Positions 16,295 through 47,563 of a stretch of 64,000 nt of DNA are shown here, one piece after another. The notes beneath the pieces were generated by a model. The model was not told the DNA's origin. It was given only the letters and a program-made list of their open reading frames with translations, and searched no databases. Numbering within the stretch: position 1 is the first letter of the stretch; the number at the start of each line of letters is the position of its first letter. The translations under genes and the position numbers were made by a program. This stretch comes from an uncultured Bacteroidales bacterium (GTDB lineage: Bacteria > Bacteroidota > Bacteroidia > Bacteroidales > UBA932), in NCBI GenBank assembly GCA_900318445.1, contig ONKO01000012.1, positions 17,601-81,600 of the forward strand, read 5' to 3'.

Positions 16295-16389
16295 ACGAAC
16301 AAAAGCAGGATTTGCCGGGAATTATGCTTAAGATCGTCAGCAGTGACGAACAAAAGCAGGATAAGGGCCAAATCACGCTTAAGATCGTC
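16295..16389 (+). repeat. Family B paired 45-bp repeat, copy 1
   Basis: Two units, 16295-16338 and 16345-16389, are separated by AGCAGT. Each unit has arms like GACGAACAAAAGC and GCTTAAGATCGTC, which are imperfect inverted repeats (10 of 13 positions). The central segments differ (TTGCCGGGAATTAT in the first, AAGGGCCAAATCAC in the second). The pair lies between dusB and the sigma factor gene. Confidence 0.9.
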
Positions 16390-16416
16390 ACCGTGCCGGT
16401 GCAAACGACGTACGGG

Positions 16417-16995
16417 TTAGAGCTGGAGCCCCATGGAGGTGAGGAGAAGGATGAGGGAGAGGTATTCGGAGAGGGCGGCCTTGAGTTTTTTCATGACCTT
16501 CTGCATGTTCTTGTCCACGCGCTTGTAGGTGATGCCAAGAGCCGTGGCAATTTCCTTGTAGGTGAGCCCGTCTATACGGTTTCGGAGCCAAACTTCCCGC
16601 TCCTGGGGAGGCAGGGCAAGCAGCGTTTCTTTATAAATGGACAGAATTTCATCGGTGAAAAGTGCTACCGGATCCCGGCTCTCGATGGTGCTTGTGTAGA
16701 TTTCCATCATGGAGCGTTCCTGACGCTGCAGCTGCTCGTGGGTCTGTTTGTGGACACTCTCTTTTCTCCGGTAATCCAGACAGGCGTTCTTGACGGTGGT
16801 GAAGAGGTAGGGGAGGATGCGGTCTTCCAAGATGTCTTCCCGCTTTTCCCACAGGTTTAGAAAAGACTGGCTCACAATGTCCTCCGCGTCTTCCCGGGAG
16901 CCTACATAGAAGTAGGCCAGGCGTTCCAGCATTTCCCGGTTTTCTCCGAAGACGTGCTCGAACAGACGATATGTGAGATTGCTTTTGTCGGACAT
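16417..16995 (-). CDS. ECF RNA polymerase sigma-70 factor (FecI-like)
   Basis: A 192-residue extracytoplasmic-function sigma factor. Region 2 contains YVGSREDAEDIVSQSFLNLW, and region 4 contains LPPQEREVWLRNRIDGLTYKEIA. An in-frame ATG 30 bases upstream is rejected because the TATCTTTG promoter box lies between the two starts. The gene diverges from fecR and the SusC/SusD genes. In Bacteroidetes such sigma factors are held by the FecR-type anti-sigma until the SusC transporter binds its glycan and signals through its N-terminal STN domain. The SusC product here does carry an STN domain. Confidence 0.93.
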   Translation of the reverse strand: MSDKSNLTYRLFEHVFGENREMLERLAYFYVGSREDAEDIVSQSFLNLWEKREDILEDRILPYLFTTVKNACLDYRRKESVHKQTHEQLQRQERSMMEIYTSTIESRDPVALFTDEILSIYKETLLALPPQEREVWLRNRIDGLTYKEIATALGITYKRVDKNMQKVMKKLKAALSEYLSLILLLTSMGLQL

Positions 16996-17002
16996 GACGG
17001 TA

Positions 17003-17010
17003 CAAAGATA
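17003..17010 (-). promoter_or_regulatory. -7 box TATCTTTG for the ECF sigma gene
   Basis: Exact consensus on the minus strand, 7 bases before the chosen ATG, implying a very short leader. It settles the start choice. Confidence 0.6.
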
Positions 17011-17031
17011 ACAAATATTAACCAAAGAGGG

Positions 17032-17043
17032 GGGGAATTCCCC
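17032..17043. promoter_or_regulatory. Palindrome GGGGAATTCCCC between sigma and fecR
   Basis: A perfect 12-bp palindrome in the 71-bp divergent intergenic region, placed to affect both promoters. No known regulator is implied. Confidence 0.4.
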
Positions 17044-17066
17044 TTTTTAAAACGTATTTATATTGT

Positions 17067-18029
17067 ATGGCAGAAATGAACAACCTAATGGACCGCTTCT
17101 TCCTGAGGGAAACCACCCCCCGGGAAAATGAAGAGCTGGCCGCCTGGATTGAGGCCGATGAGGCCCATCACAAGGCGTTCGAGCGCGCTTACGACCGTTT
17201 CGTCCTTACCCAGGTTCTCCTGGGAGGCAGCATGGCACAGGAACTCCGCAAACAGCGCCTGCGCCCTGTATTCCGTGTCGTGCGCTGGGCCGCCGCCGTC
17301 GCTTCCATCGCCGCCGCCATCACCGTGGGTGTCATCTTCGGGCGTGAGCACTTTGCCCGTCCGCTGGAACACACCCTGGAAAACACCCTCCTGGTCTCCG
17401 AAACCCAGCCCGGCCTCCGCACCACCGTCTATCTCTCCGACGGCACCCGTGTAGACCTCAACTCTGGTTCCCGCATCGAATATCCTGCCATTTTCTATGG
17501 CAAACAGCGCCGTGTGAAAGTAGAGGGAGAGGCGATGTTCGATGTGGCCAAGGATCCCGAGCACCCTTTCATCGTGGAAACTTTCTCTTACGACGTGAAG
17601 GTGCTGGGTACCGTGTTTGACGTAGTGGCCGATGAGTATCGCGGAGAATTCTCCACCGCCCTCCTGGAAGGAAGCGTTCAGATTCAGGACAAACAGGAAA
17701 CACCCGTCGTGCGCCTGGATCCCAATGAACTGGTACGCCTCGTAGACGGCAAACTGGTCCGAACCCGTATGGAGAACCACGAGGCCTATCTCTGGACCGA
17801 CGGCATTGTCTCCGTGACCGGCGTCCCGTTCGACGAAGTCCTCCAGAAACTGGAAAGGGCCTACGGTGTCAAGATCGAGATGCGCCGGAGTTCCATCCCG
17901 GAAATCCACTACTCCTACCTCAAGTTCCGCATCTCGGACGGCATTGAGCATGCGTTCCGGATTCTTCAGCGCCGATGCGACTTTACGTACTACTACGAGG
18001 AAGCTTCGGGCGTCTACTACATAGATTAA
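17067..18029 (+). CDS. FecR-family anti-sigma factor
   Basis: A 320-residue single-pass inner-membrane protein. Residues 1-68 are the cytoplasmic anti-sigma part (MDRFFLRETTPRENEELAAW). A membrane segment lies at about 70-90 (RWAAAVASIAAAITVGVIFG). The periplasmic FecR domain includes VYLSDGTRVDLNSGSRIEYP and VLGTVFDVVADE, and a DUF4974-like STN-contact domain ends the protein. It sits between the divergent sigma gene and susC and relays the transporter signal to the sigma factor. It lies 42 bases before susC and is probably in the same operon. Confidence 0.93.
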   Translation: MAEMNNLMDRFFLRETTPRENEELAAWIEADEAHHKAFERAYDRFVLTQVLLGGSMAQELRKQRLRPVFRVVRWAAAVASIAAAITVGVIFGREHFARPLEHTLENTLLVSETQPGLRTTVYLSDGTRVDLNSGSRIEYPAIFYGKQRRVKVEGEAMFDVAKDPEHPFIVETFSYDVKVLGTVFDVVADEYRGEFSTALLEGSVQIQDKQETPVVRLDPNELVRLVDGKLVRTRMENHEAYLWTDGIVSVTGVPFDEVLQKLERAYGVKIEMRRSSIPEIHYSYLKFRISDGIEHAFRILQRRCDFTYYYEEASGVYYID

Positions 18030-18071
18030 TACATTATCCCAACAATAACTAATTAACCAACTACTTAATGT

Positions 18072-21000
18072 ATGCGTAAACCCATTGTTCGGCAGTTCTG
18101 CCTTGCGGTGTTGGCCTTTGCATTCTCCCTTTCCCTGCATGCCCAGAACGTGCAGGTAAGCCTGGATATGAAGGACGCACGGCTCAAAGACGTCATTGAA
18201 AGCGTCGAGGGGCAGACCCGCTATCTGTTTGCTGCAGACGAAGAGGTGGATATGAATCAGCGGATTACGATTCACGTCCAGAACGCCTCCCTGCAGTCTG
18301 TTCTTGACCAGCTCGCATCCCGTACAGGGCTGGAGTACACCATCAACGGTTCCAACATCCTTCTTTCCAAGAAGCAGGAAGCCCAGAAGAAAACCCGCAC
18401 CGTGAGCGGCCGCATTACCGATGACGACGGTGAGCCTCTTGTTGGCGCAGGCGTTTTCGTTGAGGGACAGCCCTCTGTGGGTACCATCACCGACATTGAC
18501 GGTACCTACACGCTGGAGATTCCCGCCGGCGCCGTGGCTCTTCGCTATACCTACATTGGTATGCAGGACGCTGTGGTTCCCGTGGACGGCCGCGAGGCTA
18601 TTGACGTCATGCTGCAGGTAGACGCCACCGTCCTTGAAGGCGTGGTAGTAACCGCCCTCGGTATCAAGCGTTCCGAGAAAGCCGTTACCTACAATGTCCA
18701 GAAACTGGACGAGAAAGTCTTCGTCACCCGCGAAGCCAACCTGGTGAACTCCCTCTCCGGCAAAATTGCCGGCGTGCAGATCAATGAAACGGCCGCAGGT
18801 GCCGGTTCCGAGACCAAGGTGGTCATGCGCGGTGCCAAGTCCATCAGCGGCAACAACAACGCCCTGTATGTGCTGGACGGCATTCCGCTTCCCACCCTCA
18901 GCACCACCAAGCCCGGAGACTCCTGGAGCATCTACTCCGGTTCCGGCCTTTCCGGTGACGGTATGTCCATGCTCAACTCCGAGGATATTGCCGATATGAG
19001 CGCCCTCGTAGGTGCATCGGCCGCCGCCCTCTACGGTTACAAGGCTGCCAACGGTATCCTCATGCTCACCTCCCGCACCGGTGAGGAAGGCTTCCACGTG
19101 AGCTATTCCAACAATACCACCTTCTCTTCCCCCCTGATGCTCCCCGCCCGCCAGACCAGCTACGGTGCCAAGGCCGGCGCTTATGCCTCCTGGGGCAGCA
19201 AGCTGGAGGCCGCTCCCACCTGGAACAGCCGTGATTTCTTCCAGACCGGCTACAACTCTGCTCATTCCGTGAGCGTATCGGCCGGTAAGGAGCACTCCTC
19301 CACCTATCTGAGCGCCGGTTATTCCGACGCCCGCGGCATTGTTCCCAACAACAACTACAACCGCTTCAACGCTACTTTCCGCCATACGGCCGACTACCTG
19401 AACAATAAGCTGCACATGAGCGTGCTGGGTATGTTCGTGCGCGTGAACGAGCAGAACATGCTCTCCGGCGGTCTGTACCACAACCCGCTGGTGCCGCTCT
19501 ACCTCATGAGCCCCAGCGACAACCTGTATGCCTATACCGTTTACGAGCGCTACGACGCCGCCCGTAACTTCCCGGTCCAGTACTGGAGCACCAACCAGCT
19601 GTCCATGCAGAACCCCTTCTGGACCATCAACCGCAACATGTTCACGGCCCAGAAGAACCGTTTCATCCTGGGCGGCTCCGTCTCCTATGACGTGACCGAC
19701 TGGCTGGACGTGCAGGCCCGCGTGCGTACCGACCATAACGGAACCATCGCCGAGGAAAAGCACTACGCTTCCTCCAACGGTCTGTTCGCCGGCAAGTACG
19801 GCCGCTACAAGTACAGCGACCAGAAGACCACCCAGACCTATGCCGATGTCCTCGTAAACGTGCACAAGAACTTTGGCGAAAACGCCCTGGTGTCCCTGAA
19901 CGCCACCCTGGGCGCTTCCATCGAAGACTACTACTATCGCGGTACCACCCTGGGCGGTGACCTCCTTGGCGTAGCCAACCTGTTCACCTTCACCAACATG
20001 GAAACCGGCAAGGCCCAGTCCAAAGACACCTTCCGCGACCAGACGCAGTCCGTTTTCGGCACCCTCAACGTAGGTTACAAGAACTTCCTTTTCCTGGAAG
20101 CGACCGCCCGCGAGGACTGGTCTTCCCAGATGGCATCGGACGGTAAGGTGAAGCCCTTCTTCTATCCTTCCGTAGGTGCCTCCTGGCTCATCACCGAGAT
20201 GCTGGAGAAAAAGTCCGACATCATTCCCTATGCCAAGGTGCGTGCTTCGTACGCCGAGGTAGGTAACCCTATCAACCGCTTCATCCTCAATGAAACCTAC
20301 GCCGTGGTAGGCGGTATCCCCAACCTGAATACCTGGTTCCCCGCCCCCGACTTCCAGCCCGAGCGCACGCGCTCCTGGGAAGTAGGTGCCGATGTGCGCC
20401 TGTTCAAGGGCCTGGTCCAGCTGGCCGGAACCTACTACCACTCTTCTACCTACAACCAGGTCTTCACCCCCACCAACACCTCCCTCAGCGGCTCCAGCGT
20501 GTTCTACGTAAACGCCGGCCAGGTGGACAACTCCGGTGTGGAACTCTCTGCCCAGTTCTCCAAGGACTTCTTCAAGGACTTCAACTGGACCACCAACCTC
20601 ATCTGGACCAAGAACACCAACAAGGTGGTGAAGATGCTGGACTACACCATGGGCAATGAGCACTACGTGAGCACCCGTGAGAACGTGGGCGGAACTTCCG
20701 CCGCCACCATGTGGCTCATCGAAGGCCGTCCCGTGGGCGAAATGTACGTCTCCGGCCTGGCCACCAATGCCGATGGTACTCCGTACGTAACGCCTTCCGA
20801 CAAGGGCGGCGTCCTGTACAAGGCCCCCAACGACGGCACGCCCGACACCATGTGGTATGCCGGTAACGTGAACCCCGACTGGACGGGTTCCTGGCGCAAC
20901 CAGTTTAGCTGGAAGGGCCTTAACCTGGCCTTCATGTTCACCATGCGCAAGGGCGGCGTGGGCGTGTCCCTCACCGAGGCTGCCATGGACGGTTTCGGCG

Positions 21001-21422
21001 TAACCGAGAAGACCCTCCAGGGCCGCGAAGAAGGTTTCAACTTCGCTCCCGCCGACATCTTCGGAAATGCCCGCAACTACTATCAGGTGAGCGGCCAGGA
21101 CTACTGGCAGACCATTGCCAGCCCCACCGGTACCGACGCCCTGGGCGCCTACTATGTCTATGACATGACCAACATCCGCCTGGCCGAGGTCTCCCTGGGA
21201 TACGACATCCCCGTGAGCAAGGCCGTGAAGTGGATCGAGAGCCTGAACGTCTCCCTGGTGGGCCGCAACCTGGCCCTTCTCTACTGCAAGGCTCCCTTCG
21301 ACCCCGAGCAGGTGTCCAACGCCGGCAACTACGGCGCCGGAATCGACCTGTTCATGGCTCCGTCTACCCGTAACATCGGCTTCTCCGTGAAGGTGAAGTT
21401 CGGTAAGAAGAACAATAAATAA
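18072..21422 (+). CDS. SusC/RagA-family TonB-dependent transporter with STN domain
   Basis: An 1116-residue outer membrane protein. A signal peptide ends at about SLHAQ. It is followed by an STN signalling domain (about 28-100), a carboxypeptidase-regulatory-like domain (about 108-195, VSGRITDDDGEPLVGAGVFV), a plug (SLSGKIAGVQINETAAG, NNALYVLDGIPL) and a beta-barrel to the C-terminal KVKFGKK. With the SusD-like lipoprotein downstream it forms the pedal-bin glycan importer of Bacteroidetes. The STN domain marks it as a signalling transporter that acts on the adjacent FecR/sigma pair. The stop codon overlaps an ATG of the next ORF. Confidence 0.95.
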   Translation: MRKPIVRQFCLAVLAFAFSLSLHAQNVQVSLDMKDARLKDVIESVEGQTRYLFAADEEVDMNQRITIHVQNASLQSVLDQLASRTGLEYTINGSNILLSKKQEAQKKTRTVSGRITDDDGEPLVGAGVFVEGQPSVGTITDIDGTYTLEIPAGAVALRYTYIGMQDAVVPVDGREAIDVMLQVDATVLEGVVVTALGIKRSEKAVTYNVQKLDEKVFVTREANLVNSLSGKIAGVQINETAAGAGSETKVVMRGAKSISGNNNALYVLDGIPLPTLSTTKPGDSWSIYSGSGLSGDGMSMLNSEDIADMSALVGASAAALYGYKAANGILMLTSRTGEEGFHVSYSNNTTFSSPLMLPARQTSYGAKAGAYASWGSKLEAAPTWNSRDFFQTGYNSAHSVSVSAGKEHSSTYLSAGYSDARGIVPNNNYNRFNATFRHTADYLNNKLHMSVLGMFVRVNEQNMLSGGLYHNPLVPLYLMSPSDNLYAYTVYERYDAARNFPVQYWSTNQLSMQNPFWTINRNMFTAQKNRFILGGSVSYDVTDWLDVQARVRTDHNGTIAEEKHYASSNGLFAGKYGRYKYSDQKTTQTYADVLVNVHKNFGENALVSLNATLGASIEDYYYRGTTLGGDLLGVANLFTFTNMETGKAQSKDTFRDQTQSVFGTLNVGYKNFLFLEATAREDWSSQMASDGKVKPFFYPSVGASWLITEMLEKKSDIIPYAKVRASYAEVGNPINRFILNETYAVVGGIPNLNTWFPAPDFQPERTRSWEVGADVRLFKGLVQLAGTYYHSSTYNQVFTPTNTSLSGSSVFYVNAGQVDNSGVELSAQFSKDFFKDFNWTTNLIWTKNTNKVVKMLDYTMGNEHYVSTRENVGGTSAATMWLIEGRPVGEMYVSGLATNADGTPYVTPSDKGGVLYKAPNDGTPDTMWYAGNVNPDWTGSWRNQFSWKGLNLAFMFTMRKGGVGVSLTEAAMDGFGVTEKTLQGREEGFNFAPADIFGNARNYYQVSGQDYWQTIASPTGTDALGAYYVYDMTNIRLAEVSLGYDIPVSKAVKWIESLNVSLVGRNLALLYCKAPFDPEQVSNAGNYGAGIDLFMAPSTRNIGFSVKVKFGKKNNK

Positions 21423-21436
21423 TGGAGGATACCGCA

Positions 21437-23017: not shown

Positions 23018-23028
23018 CCCTTACAGCA

Positions 23029-24255: not shown

Positions 24256-24260
24256 AGAGT

Positions 24261-26155: not shown

Positions 26156-26168
26156 ACATTAAAACTAT

Positions 26169-28490: not shown

Positions 28491-28492
28491 TA

Positions 28493-28524
28493 TTTGGTAA
28501 TCTCCCAAAAAATAACTACCTTTG
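28493..28524 (+). promoter_or_regulatory. rplM promoter (TTTG-N20-TACCTTTG)
   Basis: TTTG at 28493-28496 and TACCTTTG at 28517-28524 with a 20-base spacer are a full consensus match. A leader of about 55 bases follows, with short complementary blocks TCCC and GGGGA. Confidence 0.85.
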
Positions 28525-35236: not shown

Positions 35237-35255
35237 ACTTTAAATTATTGATATT

Positions 35256-35516: not shown

Positions 35517-35521
35517 TTACC

Positions 35522-36585: not shown

Positions 36586-36586
36586 G

Positions 36587-38170: not shown

Positions 38171-38171
38171 A

Positions 38172-39050
38172 ATGCCTACACTGAAGGAAATAAAAGGACG
38201 GATTTCTTCCGTCAAGAGTACGCTCAAGATTACATCGGCCATGAAGCTGGTGTCGTCGGCCAAGTTGCGCAAAGCGCAGAAGGCCATCGAGGCCATGCGC
38301 CCCTATGAGGAGCAGCTGCAGCGCATGCTCCTTAAGGTGCAAGGCGCCCCGGCGGCGGGATGCGGCGAATTTTCCGCCGCTACAATAAAGGCCGATGCGG
38401 CGGAAAATTCGCCGGCATCCCGCCTGCCGCAGGCCATCGTGGCCATTGCGTCCAACTCCTCCCTTTGCGGCGGGTTCAATGCCAATGCCATTGCCAAGGT
38501 GCGGGAAGTGAGGAAGGCCGGAGACGTGGTGTACTCCATAGGTCGCAAGATGGCCGATGCCATGCGAAAGGAGGGTTTCACCTCTCCGGACGATTATTCC
38601 CATCTTGCCGAGCATCCCGCTTATGCCCCGGCCGCTGCGTTCGTAGAAAAACTGTGCGCAGAGGTTGAGGCCGGACGGTATAGCCAGGTGGTTCTTGTAT
38701 ATAACCATTTTGTTTCTACGGCAAAGCAGGTCCCTGCGGTGGAACCCCTTCTTTCGACGGGCGGTACGTCCTCTGAGCACGGTGAAGCTCCCGAGGAAGA
38801 TGTCATTATCGAGCCTTCCCGCAAGGAACTTGTTGCATCCCTGGAACCCAAAATACTCAAATTGAAACTTTACGCTGCCCTTCTGGACAGCTCGGCTGCA
38901 GAGCACGCCGCCCGCACGGTTGCCATGCAAACCGCCACCGACAACGGCGAAAACCTCCTCTCCGAACTCACCCTTCAATACAACAAGGGCCGCCAGCAGA
39001 AGATTACCTCCGAAATTCTGGATTTGGCGGGCGGACAGGCGCAGGAATAA
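38172..39050 (+). CDS. atpG: ATP synthase F1 subunit gamma
   Basis: 292 residues, the rotary shaft. The N-terminal coiled coil has LKEIKGRISSVKSTLKITSA and the C-terminal signature has SELTLQYNKGRQQKITSEIL. A middle Rossmann-like part with SNSSLCGGFNANAI is present. Last gene of the operon, followed at once by a family B repeat pair that may mark the 3' end. Confidence 0.95.
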   Translation: MPTLKEIKGRISSVKSTLKITSAMKLVSSAKLRKAQKAIEAMRPYEEQLQRMLLKVQGAPAAGCGEFSAATIKADAAENSPASRLPQAIVAIASNSSLCGGFNANAIAKVREVRKAGDVVYSIGRKMADAMRKEGFTSPDDYSHLAEHPAYAPAAAFVEKLCAEVEAGRYSQVVLVYNHFVSTAKQVPAVEPLLSTGGTSSEHGEAPEEDVIIEPSRKELVASLEPKILKLKLYAALLDSSAAEHAARTVAMQTATDNGENLLSELTLQYNKGRQQKITSEILDLAGGQAQE

Positions 39051-39059
39051 CCCGCCGCT

Positions 39060-39155
39060 GACGAACAAAAGCAGGATTTGGCCGTTTTCCTGCTTAAGAT
39101 CGTCACCACTGACGAACAAAAGCAGGATTTGCCGGGAATTATGCTTAAGATCGTC
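39060..39155 (+). repeat. Family B paired 45-bp repeat, copy 2
   Basis: Units 39060-39104 and 39111-39155 are separated by ACCACT. Arms are as in copy 1. Centres are TTGGCCGTTTTCCT and TTGCCGGGAATTAT. The pair starts 10 bases after the atpG stop. Confidence 0.9.
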
Positions 39156-39183
39156 GGGCGCTGGGCTCTCCTTTTCCTTGTCT

Positions 39184-39204
39184 TTGTGGCGGATTCCACC
39201 ACAA
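39184..39204. promoter_or_regulatory. Inverted-repeat operator candidate, site 1
   Basis: TTGTGGCGG-ATT-CCACCACAA, an inverted repeat of the TTGTGG-N9-CCACAA type. It lies 36 bases before the -7 box of the histidine kinase gene. Close relatives occur at 42718-42738 and 45594-45614, upstream of the two neighbouring operons. Confidence 0.55.
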
Positions 39205-39240
39205 TGCACTGTAGCACAAGGAATTTTGGTGCAGAAATGG

Positions 39241-39248
39241 TATCTTTG
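39241..39248 (+). promoter_or_regulatory. -7 box TATCTTTG of the two-component operon
   Basis: Exact consensus 7 bases before the ATG at 39256. The transcript would be nearly leaderless. Confidence 0.6.
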
Positions 39249-39255
39249 TGCAGTT

Positions 39256-41910
39256 ATGCACCTTTTTGCCGTCATACTGTCTCTGCTCGTAGCTGCGCCG
39301 CGGTTCGTCCATTACAACGCCGCGGACGGGCTGCCGTCCAATACGGTGTATGCGGTCACGCAGGATGCTGAGGGCGCGCTGTGGATAGGCACCCGGAACG
39401 GCCTGGCCCGCTACGACGGCGCACACTTCCAAAGCTGGAAGGAGTACGGCCGGGTGAATGCGCTCACGGTGGACAAGGCGGGCCGATTGTGGGTAGGAAC
39501 CACGCAGGGACTCCGGGTACAAGATGATGGCATTGCCGGCAACATCCGCGCACTGCACACGGACACGGAGGGCTCTGTCTGGGCCACCGTGGGAGATACG
39601 CTGCTTCTCAAACTCTCCTACAGGGACGGCATCCGGGAAGAAGCCCGCTGCCCCTACAGGAAGCGGGACTCGGAGGGTGATTACCCCTATTATCAGATCT
39701 ATGAGGCACAGGACGGAAAGCTGTGGTTAGCCGGCCGGCTGGTCCAAAACCAGTTTGTGGAAGACAGGCAGGCCCCGCACAGTACGCTCACTTCCTGGAA
39801 TGGCCTGTCGTGCATCGGAAGCTATGCCGAGACCGGCGGGAAGTTCTACGCCTTCGAAGACCATACCTCTATCCTCTACAACTGCAACGGCAGCCAGCCC
39901 ATTCCCCTGGGCCGCCTCCCCATTGCCCATGCGCGGCTCCTGACAGACAACAAAGGACAGCTCTGGGCAGCAGGCTCCTACGGCGCAGGGCCCGTGAACA
40001 CCGAAAAACCGGCAGAGACACCCGTCTATAAAACGCCCTCCACAGAACTCTACTGCCTCTTCGAAGACCGTCAGGGCAACCTCTGGCTGGGCGGTGACAA
40101 CGGCCTCTCGGTCCTGAGCCCTGCCCTCCAGCAGGTAGAAGTCCTCTCCCGGGACAACGTCACGGCCCTCATGGAAGACCACACCGGGAAGATGTGGATC
40201 GGGAAGGCCGATGACCGTGTCTCCAGCCTCTACGAAGACCGGGAAGGCACCGTGTACGTAGGCCTTTGGAACAACACCGGCTGGGAAGTGTGGTTGGGCG
40301 GCCGCAAAGCATATAAAGACCGTCTCACCGGTCCGCTCCCCGAGGAGCAGGTAGAAGCCCGGTACCTGGACGGCGCCAACTGGATCTCGGACTTTCTGGA
40401 AGACAGCGAGGGCCGCTTCTGGGTAGTCACGTGGGAAGGAGTCGGCCTCAACGAATGGGACCGGAAAGCCCGGAAGAGTTTCCCGCCCCGGTGGCTGAGC
40501 CCGTTCCGGTATCCATCGGCCCAAAACGATTCCGTCATTTATCTGAGCTCCCGCCTGGGCAGCCGTCTCATCGAGGACGCCGGGGGAAACCTCGTCTATG
40601 CCACCACCGAAGCCGGCCTCAACGTCATTGACCGGGAAACCGGCCTTGTCACCAAGTACTACAGGGGAAACTCCTCCATCCCCGACGACTACGTCACCGA
40701 CCTCTGTCTTTCCCCGGACGGTGCCATCTGGGCCGCCACCCGAAGCGGGCTCTGGAGCCCTTCCGGCATGCATTTTCTGGACGGCATGCTGGTACAGTCG
40801 GTAGAAGCCGATACCAAAGGCCGCCTCTGGGCCGGCACCGAGGACGGACTGTATTTCATTGATACCGACGGCACTACAGGCCGCGTGCCCAAAGAACTGG
40901 GCTTTCCTTCAGACCTCTACGGCGAGCACGTCTCCTGCCGGCGGGCCGGCGGCGCCCTCGCCTTCGGAGGCTCGGCCGGAGCCGTCTCCTTCCACCCAGA
41001 CAGCCTCCTCGCCATCCGGGCGCAGGGGAGCCTGCCGCTGGAAAAGCTCATCCGCCACCGCTACCGCCTCAATGAGGGCGCGTGGACGGAAGAGTGCTTT
41101 GCAGGCCTTCCGGACAACATCCGCCCCGGGCGCTACACCCTCGAGGAGCAAAGCGCCGACATTTTTGGCCGATGGGAACACGGCTCCACCGCCGTCCGTT
41201 CCATCCGAATCCCGCCCCCGCTCTGGCTCCGCTGGCCCTTCCTCCTGGGTTACCTGCTCATCATGATGGCCGTCGTCTACCTGGTGATCAAACTCCGGGA
41301 ACGCCATCTCCTGGAAAAGGAACTGGACATGCGAAACCGCCTGTTCTCCATCATCTCGCACGACCTCCGGGACCCCGTTTCGGGGAGCGCCTTCCTGTCC
41401 CGCCAGCTGCTTGAAAACCTTGACAGACTGTCCCCGGAGGACCTTCGGGAAGGGCTGACACAACTCTCGCAGGCGGCCCAGGGTACATCCCTCCTCCTGG
41501 AAAACCTCCTGCTATGGTCCCTCAACCAGAAGGGGATGCTGGCACCGGTCATGCGCAGCGAGGACCTTGCGTCACTGGCGGAAGAAGCGATTGGAGTGCT
41601 GCCGAAAGGAAGCCTGGTGACCGTCGACATCCCTGCCGGCCTCACGGTGAGGACAGACCGCAACATGCTGCTTACCGTCCTTCGAAACCTCCTGGACAAC
41701 GCTTTGAAAGTGTCTTCGAAAGTGGAGCTTCGCGCAAGGGGAACCACCCTTCGCATCACCGACGAAGGACCGGGCCTTCAGGAGGGGGAAACGCAGTTTG
41801 GCCATGGCCTGGGCCTTTTGATTACCCGCGAGCTGCTGGACAAGATGGGTGCCACCCTTCGCATGCAGAACCGGCCCCGGGGCGGCCTTGAAATAACCAT
41901 TGACTTATGA
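39256..41910 (+). CDS. Propeller-sensor histidine kinase
   Basis: 884 residues. After a short signal sequence, two-component regulator propeller repeats fill the periplasmic part (AADGLPSNTVYAVTQDAEGA, LWIGTRNGLARYDG, LWAGTEDGLYFIDTDG). A partial Y_Y_Y-like beta domain and one membrane helix (about 655-680) follow. The kinase has H-box SIISHDLRDP (His702), N-box LRNLLDNALK and glycine boxes DEGPGL and HGLGL. It resembles Bacteroides hybrid glycan sensors but lacks the fused receiver and AraC output; these roles fall to the separate response regulator, which it overlaps by ATGA. A much earlier in-frame ATG inside atpG is rejected. Confidence 0.93.
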   Translation: MHLFAVILSLLVAAPRFVHYNAADGLPSNTVYAVTQDAEGALWIGTRNGLARYDGAHFQSWKEYGRVNALTVDKAGRLWVGTTQGLRVQDDGIAGNIRALHTDTEGSVWATVGDTLLLKLSYRDGIREEARCPYRKRDSEGDYPYYQIYEAQDGKLWLAGRLVQNQFVEDRQAPHSTLTSWNGLSCIGSYAETGGKFYAFEDHTSILYNCNGSQPIPLGRLPIAHARLLTDNKGQLWAAGSYGAGPVNTEKPAETPVYKTPSTELYCLFEDRQGNLWLGGDNGLSVLSPALQQVEVLSRDNVTALMEDHTGKMWIGKADDRVSSLYEDREGTVYVGLWNNTGWEVWLGGRKAYKDRLTGPLPEEQVEARYLDGANWISDFLEDSEGRFWVVTWEGVGLNEWDRKARKSFPPRWLSPFRYPSAQNDSVIYLSSRLGSRLIEDAGGNLVYATTEAGLNVIDRETGLVTKYYRGNSSIPDDYVTDLCLSPDGAIWAATRSGLWSPSGMHFLDGMLVQSVEADTKGRLWAGTEDGLYFIDTDGTTGRVPKELGFPSDLYGEHVSCRRAGGALAFGGSAGAVSFHPDSLLAIRAQGSLPLEKLIRHRYRLNEGAWTEECFAGLPDNIRPGRYTLEEQSADIFGRWEHGSTAVRSIRIPPPLWLRWPFLLGYLLIMMAVVYLVIKLRERHLLEKELDMRNRLFSIISHDLRDPVSGSAFLSRQLLENLDRLSPEDLREGLTQLSQAAQGTSLLLENLLLWSLNQKGMLAPVMRSEDLASLAEEAIGVLPKGSLVTVDIPAGLTVRTDRNMLLTVLRNLLDNALKVSSKVELRARGTTLRITDEGPGLQEGETQFGHGLGLLITRELLDKMGATLRMQNRPRGGLEITIDL

Positions 41911-42551
41911 TTAATGTCCTTCTCATCGAAGATTCCGCCGTGTTTGTAATGGGGCTCAAGCTGGCCCTGAGCGCGCATTTCAACGTAGATTCCGTGGCCT
42001 CGCCGGGCGCTGCGGTGGCCTACCTCAACGCGCATCCGGACACAGACATAGCCGTTGTGGACATCACCCTCGAAAGCGAAACCGACGGCCTCACGCTGCT
42101 GGACATCCTCCGGGAAGCCTTTCCGGCCGTAAGGACCCTGGTGCTGTCCCACTATAAGAATCCGGCCTACATCCTCCGCGCCATTACCAGCGGCGCCTGT
42201 GCCTATCTGGCCAAGGACTCGGCACCCGAATCCATCATAGAGGCCATTGAGCATGTGGCCGATGACAAGTGCCTCTTCTTTGGCGAGACCATCGATGCGC
42301 ACAAGATCCTGAGCCTGTTCGGCGGCCGTGACAACCTGGATGCCCGCAAGCCCCAGGGCCTCACGCCCCGGGAACTCGAGGTACTGCAGCTCACTTCCTC
42401 CGGCTACAGTAACGGACAGATTGCATCGGCCCTGAGCATTTCCCTCAATACGGTAGACAGCTACAAGGAACGCATCAAGGGCAAATTCGGCCTGGACAGC
42501 ATTGTGGAATGCGTGGCCACCGCCGCCGCGAAGGGAATGGTGACGGTGTAG
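41907..42551 (+). CDS. NarL/LuxR-family response regulator
   Basis: 214 residues. The receiver domain (1-125) has acidic pocket IEDSA and phosphoacceptor Asp51 in VVDITLES; the switch lysine is in YLAKDSAPES. The C-terminal LuxR helix-turn-helix (about 148-210) has LTPRELEVLQLTSSGYSN. It is the cognate partner of the overlapping histidine kinase. The nearby shared inverted repeats upstream of three transcripts are good candidates for its binding site. The last 8 codons are part of a 32-base segment copied at 45411. Confidence 0.94.
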   Translation: MINVLLIEDSAVFVMGLKLALSAHFNVDSVASPGAAVAYLNAHPDTDIAVVDITLESETDGLTLLDILREAFPAVRTLVLSHYKNPAYILRAITSGACAYLAKDSAPESIIEAIEHVADDKCLFFGETIDAHKILSLFGGRDNLDARKPQGLTPRELEVLQLTSSGYSNGQIASALSISLNTVDSYKERIKGKFGLDSIVECVATAAAKGMVTV

Positions 42552-42568
42552 CCCGGCGCCCAGCGCCT

Positions 42569-42664
42569 GACGATCTTAAGCATAATTCCCGGCAAATCCT
42601 GCTTTTGTTCGTCAGTGCTGACGATCTTAAGCATAATTCCCGGCAAATCCTGCTTTTGTTCGTG
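42569..42664 (-). repeat. Family B paired 45-bp repeat, copy 3
   Basis: Units 42569-42613 and 42620-42664, separated by AGTGCT, in the opposite orientation to copies 1 and 2. Both centres are the common form (TTGCCGGGAATTAT read on the minus strand). Confidence 0.9.
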
Positions 42665-42717
42665 CGAAAGGTCGGTGTGCGCGGTTGCAAGGAGAAATAA
42701 CCTTGTAAATCAGCGCG

Positions 42718-42738
42718 CTGTGGCGAATTCCGCCACAA
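42718..42738. promoter_or_regulatory. Inverted-repeat operator candidate, site 2
   Basis: CTGTGGCGAATTCCGCCACAA. The right end is 19 bases before the -7 box TACCTTTG (42758-42765), so the site covers the -33 position, as expected for an activator replacing a weak -33. Confidence 0.6.
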
Positions 42739-42757
42739 AAGAGTTTTTTCGAAGGCT

Positions 42758-42765
42758 TACCTTTG
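42758..42765 (+). promoter_or_regulatory. -7 box TACCTTTG of the WG-repeat operon
   Basis: Exact consensus 18 bases before the ATG. No TTTG is seen at -33; the operator candidate occupies that place. Confidence 0.65.
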
Positions 42766-42783
42766 TGCCAAACACTGAAACCT

Positions 42784-44733
42784 ATGAAAAAAATTCTTGT
42801 CTCTATTGTCGCTCTGCTAACCACAGTAAGCGTTTTTGCCCAGGCCGGGCTGAGTCGGGGTGAGGCCGTCGTGAACCCTGCCGGCAACCCCCAGCAGGTC
42901 AAAAAGCATTGCCCGCACTGCGGCATCACTATGGGCAATATTACCTATCCCTGGCAGCATGAAAACTGGTGCCCCTATTACCGGAGTAACGGATCCGGAT
43001 CCAGCAGCAGTTCCTCCTCCTCTGTAACGGCAACAGCCATCAGCACGGGTGCCGCCGTTCTGGGAAGCGCCATCTCCAGCCTCATTACCAGCGCCATGGA
43101 CCACAGCAGCGGGGATAACAACTACTACCGGAACGAGGCCTTCGGCGGCCAAATCTCCTTCAAGACTGACTGGTATAGTGACGATGACCACACCTGCGTT
43201 GTCCTCCGGGACCCGGGGTCCGGCAAGAAGGGCATCTGGCACAACGCCTATGTCTTCAACCACAAGAGTGACCCCCAGCCTACGTCCGGTTTCTGGATTC
43301 TTAAGCCTGTGTTCGATCAAATATATATGGGCGAACACATGAACAAGGCCTACGCCATCACCTGCCAGACAAAGACCCAAAAAGGCCAGGAAAATCAGGA
43401 ATGGCAGGTGTATGAATTCGGTCTGGGCAGCATGTGCTACAAGGGACACGCCACCATCATCTCTCCCTTCACGGCGGAGGATGTGGAATTCTCCCTCAAA
43501 ACCGACAAACTCATGCTGCAGAAAGACGGCCTCTGGGGTCTGTACAAAGTAGCCCGCTCCGGACCCGATGAAATCAAGAAGCGCCCCATCACCCTCAAGC
43601 CCCTGGCCGAGCCGCAGTTTGACAGCATCCAGTTCTACGGCACGCAAAACTGCGTCTGGAAGAACGGCCACGCGGGCATCATCGACGACAACGGCAAGGA
43701 GCTCATTCCCGTAAAATACAAAGATGTAGGCACGGTCATCGGCAAGAACAAATGGGCCTGGGCTGTGGCCGATGACGGCAACGCGGGCCTGGTGAATACC
43801 AAGGGAGAGGTGATTCTGCCCTTCGAGCACGGCAGCATCCATGTGGACGAATACGGCGTATCGGCCCGCCGGGACGGAGAGGACAAGTACTTTGTGCTGC
43901 TCTCCGACGGCACCAAAACGCCTGCCCTCTACGACGACGTCACCTTCACCAAAGACGGCTATGTATTCGAGCAGAACAGCCTGTACGGCTTTGCGAACCA
44001 GCAAGGCAAAACGGTGCTGGAACCCGCCTTCGAGAGCATCCAGATTGTAAATCACGACCCCGAACTGGTGAAGTTCACCAAGATCAACGACGACTATGTG
44101 GGGAAGAAGATGTTCTTTGTAAAACAGGACGGGAAATGGGGTGTAAAGCGTTGGGCCGACGGAAGTTACATCATGGAGCCGCTCGTCTTGGACAGAAGCA
44201 AGGTTCTCTATTACCTGGGTACGCTCAAAACGTTCGACTACGAGATGATGGAAAGGGATCAGCGCGCATCGTATAGCACCGGCAAGGACGAGTTTGAGAC
44301 CCAGGCTCAGTATGAGGCCCGTCAGGCCGATCCTGCCGCCAACGCAGTTTATGTCGATAAAAAGATGGAAGGCTTCCCGCTCCTCTTCCTCCGGGCGCAG
44401 ATTAAAAAGGCGGCCGAGTCCGGAAGCGGCATGACAATTGGCTGGCACGACTACGATGCGGAGCGGCAAGCTTTTCCTTTTACCAGCAACCTGTCGCCCA
44501 TCCCCATCTACTATTTGCCCGTCCCCATCGAGGAAGGCCCGGCCTTCCGGGAGGCGCTGGGTTCCATCCGCACCAAAGATCTGCTGCAAACCGCAAAAAT
44601 ATTTATCCATCAACACTTTGCGCAGATTGCCGAAATGGACATCGCCCTGCCCTCTGGCAAGGTCTATCATTACGTAAACCCGGGCCTGGAAGCCTATACC
44701 GGCCCCATTGTTAACTATTCAGATTTGTATTGA
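42784..44733 (+). CDS. WG-repeat exported protein with N-terminal zinc-ribbon motif
   Basis: 649 residues. A signal peptide (KKILVSIVALLTTVSVFAQ) precedes a Cys-rich motif (HCPHCGITMG ... WCPYY) and a serine run. A hydrophobic segment (TAISTGAAVLGSAISSLITS) may anchor or associate with membrane. The middle (about 200-480) has degenerate WG repeats (KDGLWGLYKVA, DGNAGLVNTKGEVILPFEHG, NSLYGFANQQGKTVLEPAFE, QDGKWGVKRW), a beta-repeat fold of unknown role. The C-terminal 150 residues are not recognised. The start is the ATG just after the promoter; an earlier in-frame ATG at 42763 overlaps the -7 box. First gene of a two-gene operon. Confidence 0.85.
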   Translation: MKKILVSIVALLTTVSVFAQAGLSRGEAVVNPAGNPQQVKKHCPHCGITMGNITYPWQHENWCPYYRSNGSGSSSSSSSSVTATAISTGAAVLGSAISSLITSAMDHSSGDNNYYRNEAFGGQISFKTDWYSDDDHTCVVLRDPGSGKKGIWHNAYVFNHKSDPQPTSGFWILKPVFDQIYMGEHMNKAYAITCQTKTQKGQENQEWQVYEFGLGSMCYKGHATIISPFTAEDVEFSLKTDKLMLQKDGLWGLYKVARSGPDEIKKRPITLKPLAEPQFDSIQFYGTQNCVWKNGHAGIIDDNGKELIPVKYKDVGTVIGKNKWAWAVADDGNAGLVNTKGEVILPFEHGSIHVDEYGVSARRDGEDKYFVLLSDGTKTPALYDDVTFTKDGYVFEQNSLYGFANQQGKTVLEPAFESIQIVNHDPELVKFTKINDDYVGKKMFFVKQDGKWGVKRWADGSYIMEPLVLDRSKVLYYLGTLKTFDYEMMERDQRASYSTGKDEFETQAQYEARQADPAANAVYVDKKMEGFPLLFLRAQIKKAAESGSGMTIGWHDYDAERQAFPFTSNLSPIPIYYLPVPIEEGPAFREALGSIRTKDLLQTAKIFIHQHFAQIAEMDIALPSGKVYHYVNPGLEAYTGPIVNYSDLY

Positions 44734-44735
44734 CT

Positions 44736-45407
44736 ATGAAACGTTTCGCACTTCTTGCGCTGGCAGCGCTTCTGTTTGTTCCCGTTTCCGTGAACGCCCA
44801 GCGAAAAAACGAAAACCTGGGGAAAAAGTATGGTCCCTACGAGATTAAGATCGGGAAAGGAAAATACATGAAAGATGCCCCGGTTACGGCTATCTGGAAC
44901 AACGAAACCGGCGTGTGGGTTACCTCTCCTGTCATAGACAAAAAGAATGGGGCGATGTTCTTCCTGCCCACTACCAGTGTGGAATTCATTGAGGGAGAGG
45001 ATTATGTACCCGAAGCGCAGGGGCTTGTCAACATTGACTGGGCTTTCTGCTGGGCAAAGGGCATAGAGAATCCCAACGCGAAGTGGCTTTGCAACGGAGA
45101 GTGCGGGGTGTACAGGATCGTGGACGACAAGCTGGTTCCCATCATAGAGTCCGGGAGTTCCCTGGAGAAAGCCTACCTGTGGGAAGCTCGCTATGCTTTT
45201 TTCAAGTTTGTGCCGCACCATGCCCTTATCATTGGCGTTTTCCGCGAAAAGGACAAAAAAGCCTACTCCGTTTTTAACCTGGACGGTGAGCGTCTGTACA
45301 ACGACCTGAAGGATTGGAAGTTCAAGGAAGAGCCCAGCCTGTACATCCAGCTGGAAGACGGTACCTGGCACCATCTGGACCCGGCCGATGGTTCCCTGGT
45401 AGATTAG
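44736..45407 (+). CDS. Exported protein of unknown function
   Basis: 223 residues with a signal peptide (KRFALLALAALLFVPVSVNA). The mature part is beta-rich and holds no recognised domain; segments such as DKLVPIIESGSS and FNLDGERLYNDLKDW recall degenerate WG repeats. It begins 2 bases after the WG-repeat gene stop, so the two are surely cotranscribed and probably work together. Confidence 0.75.
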   Translation: MKRFALLALAALLFVPVSVNAQRKNENLGKKYGPYEIKIGKGKYMKDAPVTAIWNNETGVWVTSPVIDKKNGAMFFLPTTSVEFIEGEDYVPEAQGLVNIDWAFCWAKGIENPNAKWLCNGECGVYRIVDDKLVPIIESGSSLEKAYLWEARYAFFKFVPHHALIIGVFREKDKKAYSVFNLDGERLYNDLKDWKFKEEPSLYIQLEDGTWHHLDPADGSLVD

Positions 45408-45444
45408 CCCGCGAAGGGAATGGTGACGGTGTAGCCCGGCGCTC

Positions 45445-45540
45445 GACGATCTTAAGCATAATATGGCCCAAATCCTGCTTTTGTTCGTCAGTGGTGACGA
45501 TCTTAAGCATAATTCCCGGCAAATCCTGCTTTTGTTCGTG
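45445..45540 (-). repeat. Family B paired 45-bp repeat, copy 4
   Basis: Units 45445-45489 and 45496-45540 separated by AGTGGT. The first centre is TTGGGCCATATTAT and the second the common TTGCCGGGAATTAT, so the pair differs from copy 3 although the flanks are duplicated. Confidence 0.9.
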
Positions 45541-45593
45541 CGAAAGATCGGTATGCGCGGTTGCAAGGAGAAATAGCCTTGTAAATTAGCGCA

Positions 45594-45614
45594 CTGTAGC
45601 GGATTCCGCCACAA
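45594..45614. promoter_or_regulatory. Inverted-repeat operator candidate, site 3
   Basis: CTGTAGCGGATTCCGCCACAA, ending 19 bases before the -7 box TACCTTTG at 45634-45641, the same spacing as site 2. Confidence 0.6.
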
Positions 45615-45633
45615 GAAAATGGTCGGAGAAGAA

Positions 45634-45641
45634 TACCTTTG
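45634..45641 (+). promoter_or_regulatory. -7 box TACCTTTG of the CxxC-repeat operon
   Basis: Exact consensus 18 bases before the ATG at 45660, with the operator candidate covering -33. Confidence 0.65.
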
Positions 45642-45659
45642 CAGAAAACACTAGAACGT

Positions 45660-46082
45660 ATGAAAAAGGTACTTTCACTTGTTTTGGTCATGGCGGGTGT
45701 TATCCTGCTTACCGCCATGGTTTCCGGTGACCGCGAGTGCTCCCGATGCGACGGCACAGGAAAACTTACCGAAAACTGTTCCTTCTGCGGAGGACGCGGA
45801 TGGAGAGACTGCTCCCTTTGTAACGGGCACAAGAGCATCCGCTGTACAGTATGCGGCGGTGGCGGCAGTTACACCTGCCCGCATTGCCATGGACGTAATG
45901 ACGAATGCCGTTACTGCGGCGGAGACGGCTCCATCAAGTGCGAGCGCTGCTCCGGAACCGGTTCCATCACTTGCACAAGTTGTGGCGGCGCCGGCAATCA
46001 GCCTTGTGGCCAGTGTGGTCAGACAGGAGTCAAAGAGTGGAATTGTCCGGACTGCCGCGGAACAGGCAGGGTAGATGATTAA
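45660..46082 (+). CDS. Exported protein with ten CxxC zinc-ribbon repeats (DnaJ Cys-rich-like)
   Basis: 140 residues. A hydrophobic N-terminus (KKVLSLVLVMAGVILLTAMV) is a signal peptide or anchor. The rest consists of ten tandem CxxC motifs, many of the form CxxCxGxG (CSRCDGTG, CSFCGGRG, CTVCGGGG, CRYCGGDG, CERCSGTG, CTSCGGAG, CPDCRGTG). DnaJ has four such motifs binding two zinc ions; ten would fit five. No J domain or other DnaJ part is present. A chaperone or redox role in the envelope is possible but unproven. First gene of a four-gene operon. Confidence 0.85.
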   Translation: MKKVLSLVLVMAGVILLTAMVSGDRECSRCDGTGKLTENCSFCGGRGWRDCSLCNGHKSIRCTVCGGGGSYTCPHCHGRNDECRYCGGDGSIKCERCSGTGSITCTSCGGAGNQPCGQCGQTGVKEWNCPDCRGTGRVDD

Positions 46083-46087
46083 AGCCT

Positions 46088-46546
46088 ATGAAAAAGATTG
46101 CTCTTATTGCTGCGTCACTGCTGCTAAGTGCAGTGTGCGCCTGTGCCCAGGAAGCACCTGAGGCCGTAGATCTGGGACTTAGCGTGCAGTGGGCCGATAA
46201 AGACATCGCCCCGGAAACAGTCATTCCCTCGGGCTGGCGGTTGCCCACGCTGGCGGAAATCAAGGAACTCCGCGAGGGCTGCACGCAGACCGTCCTGGAA
46301 AAGGATGGGGAAGAGTGGGTGGTCTTTACCGGGGAAAACGGGAGCAGCATCTCCTTCCTCTATCCTTTGGGAAGCCGCTCGGCGAGGGATTTTGGCATTG
46401 CGGGCTCTGACGGGTGTTACCTGAAAGTCATCATCCTCAATCCCATGCTGAAAGCACCCAGCCGGGATGGCTACTATACCTGGGAAGAACTGGGAGAAAC
46501 CAGCCTTGGGCAAAGAAAGTATCCGGTACGTTTAGTAAAAGAGTAG
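46088..46546 (+). CDS. Exported Fibrobacter-paralogue-like domain protein
   Basis: 152 residues with signal peptide (LIAASLLLSAVCACAQ). VDLGLSVQWAD and PSGWRLPTLAEIKELREGC match the beginning and middle of the Fib_succ_major/DUF1566-type domain. The long aromatic segment usually between these blocks (FGDYYAWGE type) is missing, so the domain is short. It starts 5 bases after the CxxC gene. Such domains are common in secreted Bacteroidetes proteins; function unknown. Confidence 0.78.
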   Translation: MKKIALIAASLLLSAVCACAQEAPEAVDLGLSVQWADKDIAPETVIPSGWRLPTLAEIKELREGCTQTVLEKDGEEWVVFTGENGSSISFLYPLGSRSARDFGIAGSDGCYLKVIILNPMLKAPSRDGYYTWEELGETSLGQRKYPVRLVKE

Positions 46547-46550
46547 TATC

Positions 46551-47024
46551 ATGAGACGCGTTCTTTTTCTCCTTTCCCTTGCCTTGCTGCTCCTTTCCGG
46601 CTGCAAGGAAAAGCGTTGTTTTACAGAAGTTACCGGGGATGTTTATCTTTCCCGGATTAGTTTTGAAGATGAAAGTTTCCGGAACTTCACGGTAGTAACG
46701 GATGTTTTGTACGCCGGGGAAGATACATCTTCCCGCTACAAGATGGTTTTTTATATGCCGGATGGCTGGGATAACACTTACCCCATTTTCCTGGACCGAT
46801 ATGTCCTTAATGACCAAATGCAACCGTGGACGGCTTATCAGGGAGCTCCCGTAGCCGAGGCAGCACTGAATCGCGGTGACATGATTGTGGTCCTGGTAGC
46901 CTACAATGAATGGACCGCCATTCCGGACATCCTCCTGGCCGAGCACTTCATCAAGGAGCACGATGCCGACCTGCCGGGAGACAGTAAGAAGATTCTCACG
47001 GCCGCTTACTTTGATTTCGAATGA
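46551..47024 (+). CDS. Lipoprotein of unknown function
   Basis: 157 residues with lipobox LLLSGC. No known domain; the mature part is acidic and beta-rich (YKMVFYMPDGWDNTYPIFLD). It starts 4 bases after the previous stop and ends in an ATGA overlap with the next gene. Confidence 0.75.
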   Translation: MRRVLFLLSLALLLLSGCKEKRCFTEVTGDVYLSRISFEDESFRNFTVVTDVLYAGEDTSSRYKMVFYMPDGWDNTYPIFLDRYVLNDQMQPWTAYQGAPVAEAALNRGDMIVVLVAYNEWTAIPDILLAEHFIKEHDADLPGDSKKILTAAYFDFE

Positions 47025-47470
47025 GACGCTGTTTATTCCTTCTAATGCTCCTCATGCTGGGCTGGAGCACCGCCGCCCAGACGCCCGAGGAACTGTACGC
47101 CGATTACATCACGCCGGAGACACGGGCCATCCTGGAACGGGCCCGGGAGGCGGAGAGAAGGGCCGAGGAAGCCGAAGCCGCCGCAAAGGCGCAGAAGACC
47201 CTGGCGCTTTGTGGTGCCATCCTCATCGGCCTGGTCCCGCTTTGCGTCATCGGCCGCAGAAGCCTTCGGAAAAAGTCCTGGAAAGATAATCCCGGCGGCA
47301 CGGTCCGCGCGCTGGGTGTGGGCCTTGTCGGCGGGGTTTGCCTGTTTGCTCTGAATTACGGCATTTTCCTTCTGAAAATCCGCATGGGTGATGCCTTCAA
47401 CTCGGCCCTGGCCTTTTTGCTGGTCTCGGCCTTGATTGCCGGCAGTGTCTACCTTATTAGAAGCGCCTGA
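47021..47470 (+). CDS. Small membrane protein with coiled-coil segment
   Basis: 149 residues. A signal peptide (LFLLMLLMLGWSTAA) is followed by a charged helical stretch (ILERAREAERRAEEAEAAAK). Three hydrophobic helices then lie at about 62-80, 94-115 and 128-146. No known family. Last gene of the operon; its stop codon TGA contributes two bases to a family B unit. Confidence 0.7.
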   Translation: MRRCLFLLMLLMLGWSTAAQTPEELYADYITPETRAILERAREAERRAEEAEAAAKAQKTLALCGAILIGLVPLCVIGRRSLRKKSWKDNPGGTVRALGVGLVGGVCLFALNYGIFLLKIRMGDAFNSALAFLLVSALIAGSVYLIRSA

Positions 47471-47563
47471 CGATCTTAAGCATCTTTTACGGCAAATCCT
47501 GCTTAAGATCGTCAGCACTGACGAACAAAAGCAGGATTTGGACCATATTACGCTTAAGATCGT
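47469..47563. repeat. Family B paired 45-bp repeat, copy 5 (one unit with perfect arms)
   Basis: Unit 47469-47513 has GACGATCTTAAGCA on the left and TGCTTAAGATCGTC on the right, a perfect 14-bp inverted repeat, unlike the other units. Unit 47520-47563 follows after AGCACT with centre TTGGACCATATTAC. The first unit begins inside the preceding stop codon. Confidence 0.9.

Follow-up and report, generated by a model that had tools for sequence, protein, structure and literature searches.

In Pseudomonas, repetitive extragenic palindromic (REP) sequences form doublets (REPINs) that fold into one hairpin, lie between genes and have a cognate REP-associated tyrosine transposase (RAYT) nearby. In the available part of that study 93% of 430 doublets were inverted and the distance within the doublet was specific for the family, 71 or 110 bp (PMC3116915). 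The TnpA-REP of Escherichia coli, which belongs with the bacterial interspersed mosaic elements (BIMEs), is an HuH enzyme with one tyrosine, and its mismatched, imperfect hairpins come with a GTAG guide and a variable linker, as described in the accessible sections (PMC8266576; PDB 4er8). The CGTC-tagged REPs, also reported from Bacteroidetes, have stems of 8-9 bp and loops of 4-5 nt, form mostly head-to-head dimers and have no transposase gene, and the consulted parts of the same survey give head-to-tail dimers as absent, under-represented or negligible (PMC3733652). For Bacteroidetes the text at hand also describes TnpAY1 subclass 2.6, with genes flanked by atypical structures without GTAG (PMC6006769), and RayT genes were described in Chryseobacterium, with no mention of palindromes in the portions seen (PMC11194056); the extracts of PMC2817692 do not mention Bacteroidetes. 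Here we describe five paired repeats in a 64,000-nucleotide stretch of DNA (the window) from an uncultured Bacteroidales bacterium (GenBank assembly GCA_900318445.1, contig ONKO01000012.1, positions 17,601 to 81,600), together with a divergent RAYT from the same genome. The pairs are probably non-autonomous REP-type doublets of this RAYT, recognised and copied or moved by it, with a pitch that may act as a ruler set by the protein.

The window comes from a genome of 2.31 Mb in 32 contigs (G000), which is 88% complete. It contains ten quasi-palindromic units of 45 bp each, grouped as five pairs with a pitch of 51 bp, and the spacer was 6 bp in all five. A pattern made from the two arms, with at most three mismatches, gave 11 matches in the window, one symmetric unit being matched on each strand; 100 dinucleotide shuffles of the window gave no match. 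The arrangement is the one reported in an earlier note on this DNA, as is the finding of one common core in five units and different cores in the other five. The note was right about the start of four pairs and about the length of the spacer, while pair 1 begins at 16294 rather than 16295, and the spacers of pairs 3 and 4, which lie on the minus strand, read differently in unit direction. All pairs were intergenic and located at, or shortly past, the 3' end of a gene, with pair 5 overlapping the final 2 bases of an open reading frame. The pairs are as follows, with spacers in unit direction.

Pair 1: 16294 to 16389, plus strand; units 16294-16338 and 16345-16389, spacer AGCAGT; the neighbouring genes, both on the minus strand, are a Dus gene (15227-16261), whose 5' end faces the pair, and a sigma-70/ECF-type gene (16417-17025), whose 3' end does.
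Pair 2: 39060 to 39155, plus strand; units 39060-39104 and 39111-39155, spacer ACCACT; directly 3' of an ATP-synt (ATP synthase gamma-like) gene (38172-39050).
Pair 3: 42569 to 42664, minus strand; units 42569-42613 and 42620-42664, spacer AGCACT; 3' of a LuxR-type response regulator gene (41907-42551).
Pair 4: 45445 to 45540, minus strand; units 45445-45489 and 45496-45540, spacer ACCACT; its flank is shared with the pair 3 locus through duplication.
Pair 5: 47469 to 47564, plus strand; units 47469-47513 (with the right-arm sequence at either end) and 47520-47564, spacer AGCACT.

A gene for a 304-amino-acid Y1/HuH transposase of the RAYT type was found on contig 16 of G000 (73.6-74.5 kb), flanked on both sides by units of the same family, three on one side and two on the other. 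The earlier note had suspected either a recognised site or an enzyme dedicated to spreading, and had proposed a search for a Y1 (TnpA-REP) transposase near the repeats; the gene lends support to this, spreading itself being what such an enzyme would do. Residues H63, H65, Y121, R124 and N125 were invariant across an alignment of 27 RAYT members, and H63, H65 and Y121 are by position and motif the putative catalytic residues. The middle residue of the HuH motif is Gly in this protein and not hydrophobic. An AlphaFold2 model of the protein (pLDDT 93.4) has a long, helical C-terminal region. Its best match in PDB was 4er8, E. coli TnpA-REP with a REP hairpin (Foldseek probability 1.00, E 2.0e-3, TM 0.58 by target length); the unrelated 3mru ranked second, and the transposases of IS608, IS200 and ISDra2 filled most of the next ranks. 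The enzyme thus resembles TnpA-REP in having HuH and one Tyr, in structure and in the mismatched, imperfect hairpins around it, but differs from the published description in its length, in the long helical C-terminal part and in repeats with no enrichment of GTAG. It was not placed in TnpAY1 subclass 2.6, for which the accessible text gives a median of 179 amino acids, WQ and YIH[QN]NP, whereas the proteins here have about 300 amino acids (304 in the query) and YVVRNP, and the query has no W between HuH and Tyr; the occurrence in Bacteroidetes and the atypical flanking structures lacking GTAG are common to both. A PF01797 search of G000 gave 13 matches at E 1 or better, three of which look spurious as read from the matches (two cytidylate-kinase-like, one MurE-like). 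Ten further frames around the RAYT gene include RlmN-, thymidine kinase-, TP_methylase-, HHH_3- and RecA-type proteins, the recA gene adjoining the RAYT locus (L055 6743-7810).

Throughout G000 the arm pattern gave 32 rows, representing 31 distinct unit places, and a reversed control pattern gave none. The number is an undercount because the pattern fixed the core at 19 bases and pairs with a 20-base core were missed. With 31 unit places and intergenic window pairs the repeat answers the description of a REP as a short extragenic palindrome with many dispersed copies. A search with exact arms that permitted 0-30 bases between a right arm and a left arm, and so missed diverged junctions, yielded 20 junctions from G000 and 7 from a related genome, G028, matched through its RAYT loci to the Bacteroidales MAG Tb.RUG.533. 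The spacer was 6 bp in 26 of these 27, and the sole exception, beside the RAYT gene, includes a decayed unit. A relaxed scan of the retrieved loci found pairs with a 51-bp pitch nearly everywhere and one triple beside the RAYT gene. One pair on contig 16 had a degenerate third unit, one single unit on contig 30 had an apparent degraded partner alongside, and two pairs on contig 15 include a 46-bp unit. Cores occurred in both orientations relative to the arms. The units are therefore not mostly single and randomly spaced, nor do the pairs go back to one duplicated locus, the two outcomes that would have refuted the earlier note: flanks and cores differ between pairs, though pairs 3 and 4 have a duplicated flank in common.

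The repeat was found in three of 101 genomes of the genus, G000 (32 rows), G028 (15 rows) and G077 (1 row, about 15 bp from a RAYT match). These are the same three genomes that carry the RAYT subclade L055/L080/L082, in which the two relatives are 84% and 68% identical to the RAYT of G000. When 135 RAYT loci were searched with at most three mismatches, arms of this family were present in five, namely L055, L080 and its duplicate L189, and L082 and its duplicate L193, all belonging to this subclade. RAYT relatives in other records came from uncultured Bacteroidales or Bacteroidia and, where the title names a host, from ruminants. Because the RAYT-type gene is flanked by the repeats, and the repeat is confined to the genomes of its subclade, we regard repeat and gene as a REP/RAYT (REPIN-like) system.

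DNA folding favoured a single long hairpin, with the 6-bp spacer at its tip, over two hairpins in 19 of 19 rows of the family; the rows represent 18 loci, with one triple entered twice and the contig-15 pairs and one contig-18 pair left out. In the same rows direct identity between the two units exceeded inverted identity in 16, equalled it in 1 and was lower in 2, the pairs thus being mostly head-to-tail. Together these results describe a REPIN-like doublet whose halves are palindromes themselves. Eight units and three pairs were folded on both strands, and their folds were generally more stable than those of shuffles. The doublet unit, the predicted one-hairpin fold, the nearby cognate RAYT and the intergenic position agree with the REPINs of Pseudomonas. 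Pairing alone does not set the present repeats apart from other REPs, a limit on the view in the earlier note that fixed pairing with variable cores is unusual. The present pairs differ from the doublets described there in that each unit is a hairpin itself, in the mostly head-to-tail order, in the 6-bp spacer and in a pitch of 50-53 bp across unrelated families. Most units of the family begin with GACG and end with CGTC, as in the CGTC-tagged REPs, but CGTC was not enriched across families and 45-bp units stand on both sides of a RAYT gene, and we do not assign the repeat to that superfamily as published. Intrinsic terminators were also considered, and by eye no T-run follows the units (no terminator scan was run).

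The pitch is not peculiar to this repeat. A blind scan of the window for direct repeats (lags 18-200, score at least 16) gave nine matches, the top six at lags of 51-53 and the other three at 78, 75 and 171. The top six correspond to four of the pairs found with the arm pattern, pair 5 not being among the nine matches, and to two pairs of different sequence:

120 to 206, strand not assigned; paired repeat of different sequence, lag 53 bp, stem TAACGCG...CGCGTTA, by eye like the family of a sister RAYT (locus L077).
63595 to 63678, strand not assigned; paired repeat of unrelated sequence, lag 52 bp, with no blastn match in ten RAYT loci of the genome and the searched 400-kb sample.

The four RAYTs of the clade in G000 have separate repeats each, and the repeats that flank three sister RAYTs in the genome were unrelated in sequence and had pitches of 51, 52 and 53 bp. 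A tree was made of 73 genes from 41 genomes of the genus, the best-scoring of a longer list, and divided into groups by midpoint root. Flanks were scored for a direct repeat within 500 bp of the gene with a score above 11.0, the 95% quantile of 292 first-order shuffles of this first gene set, and the threshold was reused for a second set. For a clade of 49 genes 71 of 98 flanks were significant, with the top lag at 50-53 in 60 and at the double, 100-106, in 5, and in 44 genes at least one flank was dominated by a pitch of 50-53 bp or twice that. The sister group had such a pitch in 4 of 24 genes, its other lags including 61, 73-74 and 83. With the scan restricted to lags of 44-60, 62 of 65 flanks fell at 50-53. 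The second set was taken from GTDB contigs with peptide patterns of the subclade itself (A3) and is not evenly sampled; of the 62 genes obtained from 63 loci, 10 were duplicates, and their removal left 52. Of these, 37 had the 50-53 bp pitch or its double, and 55 of 68 significant flanks were at a lag of 51-53, the other 13 elsewhere. A de novo scan of 400 kb of G000 placed 11 of 31 direct repeats at lags of 50-53, one of them an acidic coding repeat as read, compared to 0 of 18 in 400 kb of the single control genome, G052, a member of the genus without the clade. The clade profile matched in 3 of 393 genomes across the order, all of this genus, with at most five candidates scored per genome among the matches listed; a looser profile (A1), which also catches the sister group, matched in 85 of 101 genomes of the genus with up to 11 matches each.

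The repeats of the 85 qualifying genes fell into 45 families at blastn E 1e-3, including one loosely linked group of 29 genes, and into 67 families at E 1e-6. Repeats were shared in all 15 gene pairs with a RAYT identity of at least 80%, in 4 of 11 at 70-80% and in 10 of 68 at 60-70%. Below 60% the figure was 27 among 3387 scored pairs. Another 6 linked pairs had no protein score. As sharing is lost this fast with RAYT identity, the stem sequence changes quickly and the pitch mostly does not. A loop of the type WWW-GCC-WWW (A/T-rich, GCC or GGC, A/T-rich) was found in 42 of 67 families, compared to a mean of 12.3 and a maximum of 22 in shuffles, for a motif that was defined only after the loops had been inspected. 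An earlier test on symmetry axes, in which loop axes were confounded with spacer axes, gave GCC or GGC in 23 of 45 (shuffles: mean 9.8, maximum 18).

Comparison with G028, whose identity to parts of the window is 91-96% over stretches of 1-2.7 kb, revealed turnover at the pairs. Pair 5 is also present on contig 35 of G028, where the left flank is the same and the right one differs. Contig 10 carries window sequence from both sides of pair 5 without the pair. A junction past the response regulator gene also lacked a pair in G028, and another pair was kept in both genomes (contig 3 of G028). At a collinear locus G000 has pairs of this family and G028 has a different pair, also with a pitch of 51 bp. 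Two inverted pairs in G000 enclose a segment of 2.7 kb that appeared inverted in G028, as judged on two contigs, and several breakpoints of rearrangement between the genomes coincide with pairs. The comparison thus gives presence or absence and rearrangement at pairs, short of a clean insertion. Candidates for clean empty sites were set aside: in a third genome, G005, pair 3 is missing and the synteny differs, and in G028 flanking sequence is missing too where contig 10 lacks pair 5 and contig 35 lacks the block of pairs 3 and 4. The segment at L051 2557-5257, which lies between two inverted pairs and seems to be oriented differently in G000 and G028, carries an ABC-F-like and an MsrA-like gene (named by eye).

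The sequences themselves show the doublet anatomy, the flanking of the RAYT gene, the restriction to its subclade among 101 genomes and the similar pitch of unrelated sister doublets. We propose that when a strand is exposed, for instance as lagging-strand template, the doublet would fold single-stranded, predictably into two short hairpins or, more stably, into one long hairpin with the spacer at the tip. The RAYT would recognise the hairpin doublet through stem sequence and loop, cut and join at its ends, and the whole doublet of about 96 nt may then be copied or moved to new intergenic sites. The 50-53 nt between hairpin centres, kept as the stems diverge, would be a ruler set by the protein. 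More tentatively, with somewhat less than even confidence, we suggest that this single-genus RAYT clade comprises parallel copying systems, each with its own stem, many with WWW-GCC-WWW loops instead of GTAG, and with a ruler of 50-53 nt.

Several observations weigh against this proposal. The RAYT scored 15.3 bits for Pfam Y1_Tnp, below the cut-off of 23, and 21.6 for NCBIfam REP_Tyr_transpos, below the cut-off of 80, and no Foldseek E-value for the model was at or below 0.001; 8 of the 27 aligned members matched Y1_Tnp at E 0.01 or better. It is an enzyme with the putative catalytic residues of a RAYT and a Y1 fold, yet under the curated cut-offs. No arms of the family (at most three mismatches) were present at L190-L192, whose RAYTs are 62-68% identical to that of G000, so the coupling of repeat and RAYT holds for the closest relatives only. 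The GT[AG]G guide was not enriched, occurring in 32 of 67 families compared to a shuffle mean of 46.1; with CGTC in 31 of 67 compared to 35.9, neither tag is a common guide. The pitch was missing in 5 of the 49 genes in the clade and in 15 of the 52 in the second set, where single flanks had lags of 36, 39, 40, 43, 44, 47, 54, 55, 60, 64, 75, 76 and 117. Comparisons among G000, G028 and G005 yielded neither a transposition event nor a target duplication, and no insertion with a clean boundary. The mobility of the doublets is what we infer from the whole, and the G028 alleles that lack both pair and flank could be deletions.

The pitch could in part be inherited and not enforced. In its full form, in which an ancestral doublet of each RAYT drifted by substitution with rare coordinated indels and no ruler, this explanation is unlikely, although it deserves more weight than the others considered. 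The RAYT genes do form one clade and repeats are common to close neighbours, but the pitch varies by single bases between families (50, 51, 52 and 53) and units of 45 and 46 bp occur within one family. Indels therefore do happen, yet the pitch range mostly stays narrow. This 4-bp range is also mostly held at RAYT identities of 20-40%, where a detectable repeat is common in 15 of 2517 pairs.

Helical phasing on double-stranded DNA is rather improbable as the origin of the pitch. Here 51-53 bp, being near five turns of 10.5 bp, would present both units on the same face to the helical C-terminal region of the RAYT or to a nucleoid protein. The repeats at 21-22 bp of a second RAYT subfamily in G000, the single flanks of the second set at 43, 64 and 75, and the sister-group lags of 83 and 73-74 bp are in line with it. 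However, no lags near 42, 63, 74 or 84 occurred among the significant flanks of the 49-gene clade, and the exact 6-bp spacer in 26 of 27 junctions is tighter than phasing requires.

We find it doubtful, and less probable still, that the pairs are mainly RNA signals kept by the host (bidirectional attenuators or 3'-end stabilisers) and were spread by the RAYT only formerly. Such a role would suit the position at or just past gene 3' ends and the stable folding on both strands, but a repeat present only in the three genomes with the RAYT subclade, turning over between related genomes and with no T-run by eye behind the hairpins, is not expected from it, and the common pitch of unrelated families beside their own RAYTs is left unexplained. 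A role as sites at which a tyrosine recombinase or an integron recombines (attC-like), or an origin as a remnant of CRISPR, is very improbable despite imperfect palindromes, variable centres and coinciding G028 breakpoints: a Y1 transposase is encoded between the repeats, ordinary recombination between repeats accounts for the breakpoints, and no integrase or Cas family was found in the ten RAYT-side frames or in eight window proteins, mostly adjacent to pairs, a search that did not extend genome-wide.

Doublets copied by a RAYT, as proposed, mean that the system works like REPIN/RAYT and adds to it a pitch common to families of unrelated sequence. The REP systems described, as far as the available texts go, rest on inverted pairs and a GTAG guide. 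Full-text literature searches, judged by titles and abstract openings, returned no such doublets in Bacteroidales (preprints and most subscription papers lay outside, so absence is unproven), and a fixed single-strand ruler for a REP transposase was not described in the parts of the literature searched. With many natural families that hold one distance while the repeat sequence changes, geometry becomes separable from sequence, and the question of a ruler can be reduced to a binding or cutting assay on pairs of altered pitch. Up to eleven related genes per genome, sister group included, and the separate repeats for four clade genes in G000 constitute a natural experiment in how such pairs diverge yet remain specific.

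Other repeats and duplications were observed around the same loci. In G000 a second RAYT-like subfamily (SNHxH; L072, L073 and L076) has flanking repeats with a pitch of 21-22 bp, and in a third (L068, L070 and L067) the gene is flanked to either side by palindromes or inverted repeats of some 31-47 bp. Long arrays with a pitch of 74 bp border both ends of a sister-group RAYT on contig 4 of G016 (L141). Pairs of at least two different families are adjoined by a dispersed palindromic element of about 83 bp, which has many more matches in G028:

L051, 2370-2452 and 5355-5437: palindromic element of about 83 bp.
L055, 2287-2367: the same element.
L164, 9707-9787: the same element.
L059, from about 2403: the same element.

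In the window, the end of the response regulator gene, the pair and the next promoter region are duplicated (42520-42791 and 45409-45684) around a two-gene block, which in G028 lies mostly on another contig, adjoining sequence that matches window 39266-39434. A 19-bp near-palindrome, TGTRGCGRATTCCRCCACA, at 39185, 42719 and 45595 adjoins pairs 2, 3 and 4 before the next gene, and looks like a regulator-binding operator, perhaps for the response regulator encoded at 41907-42551.

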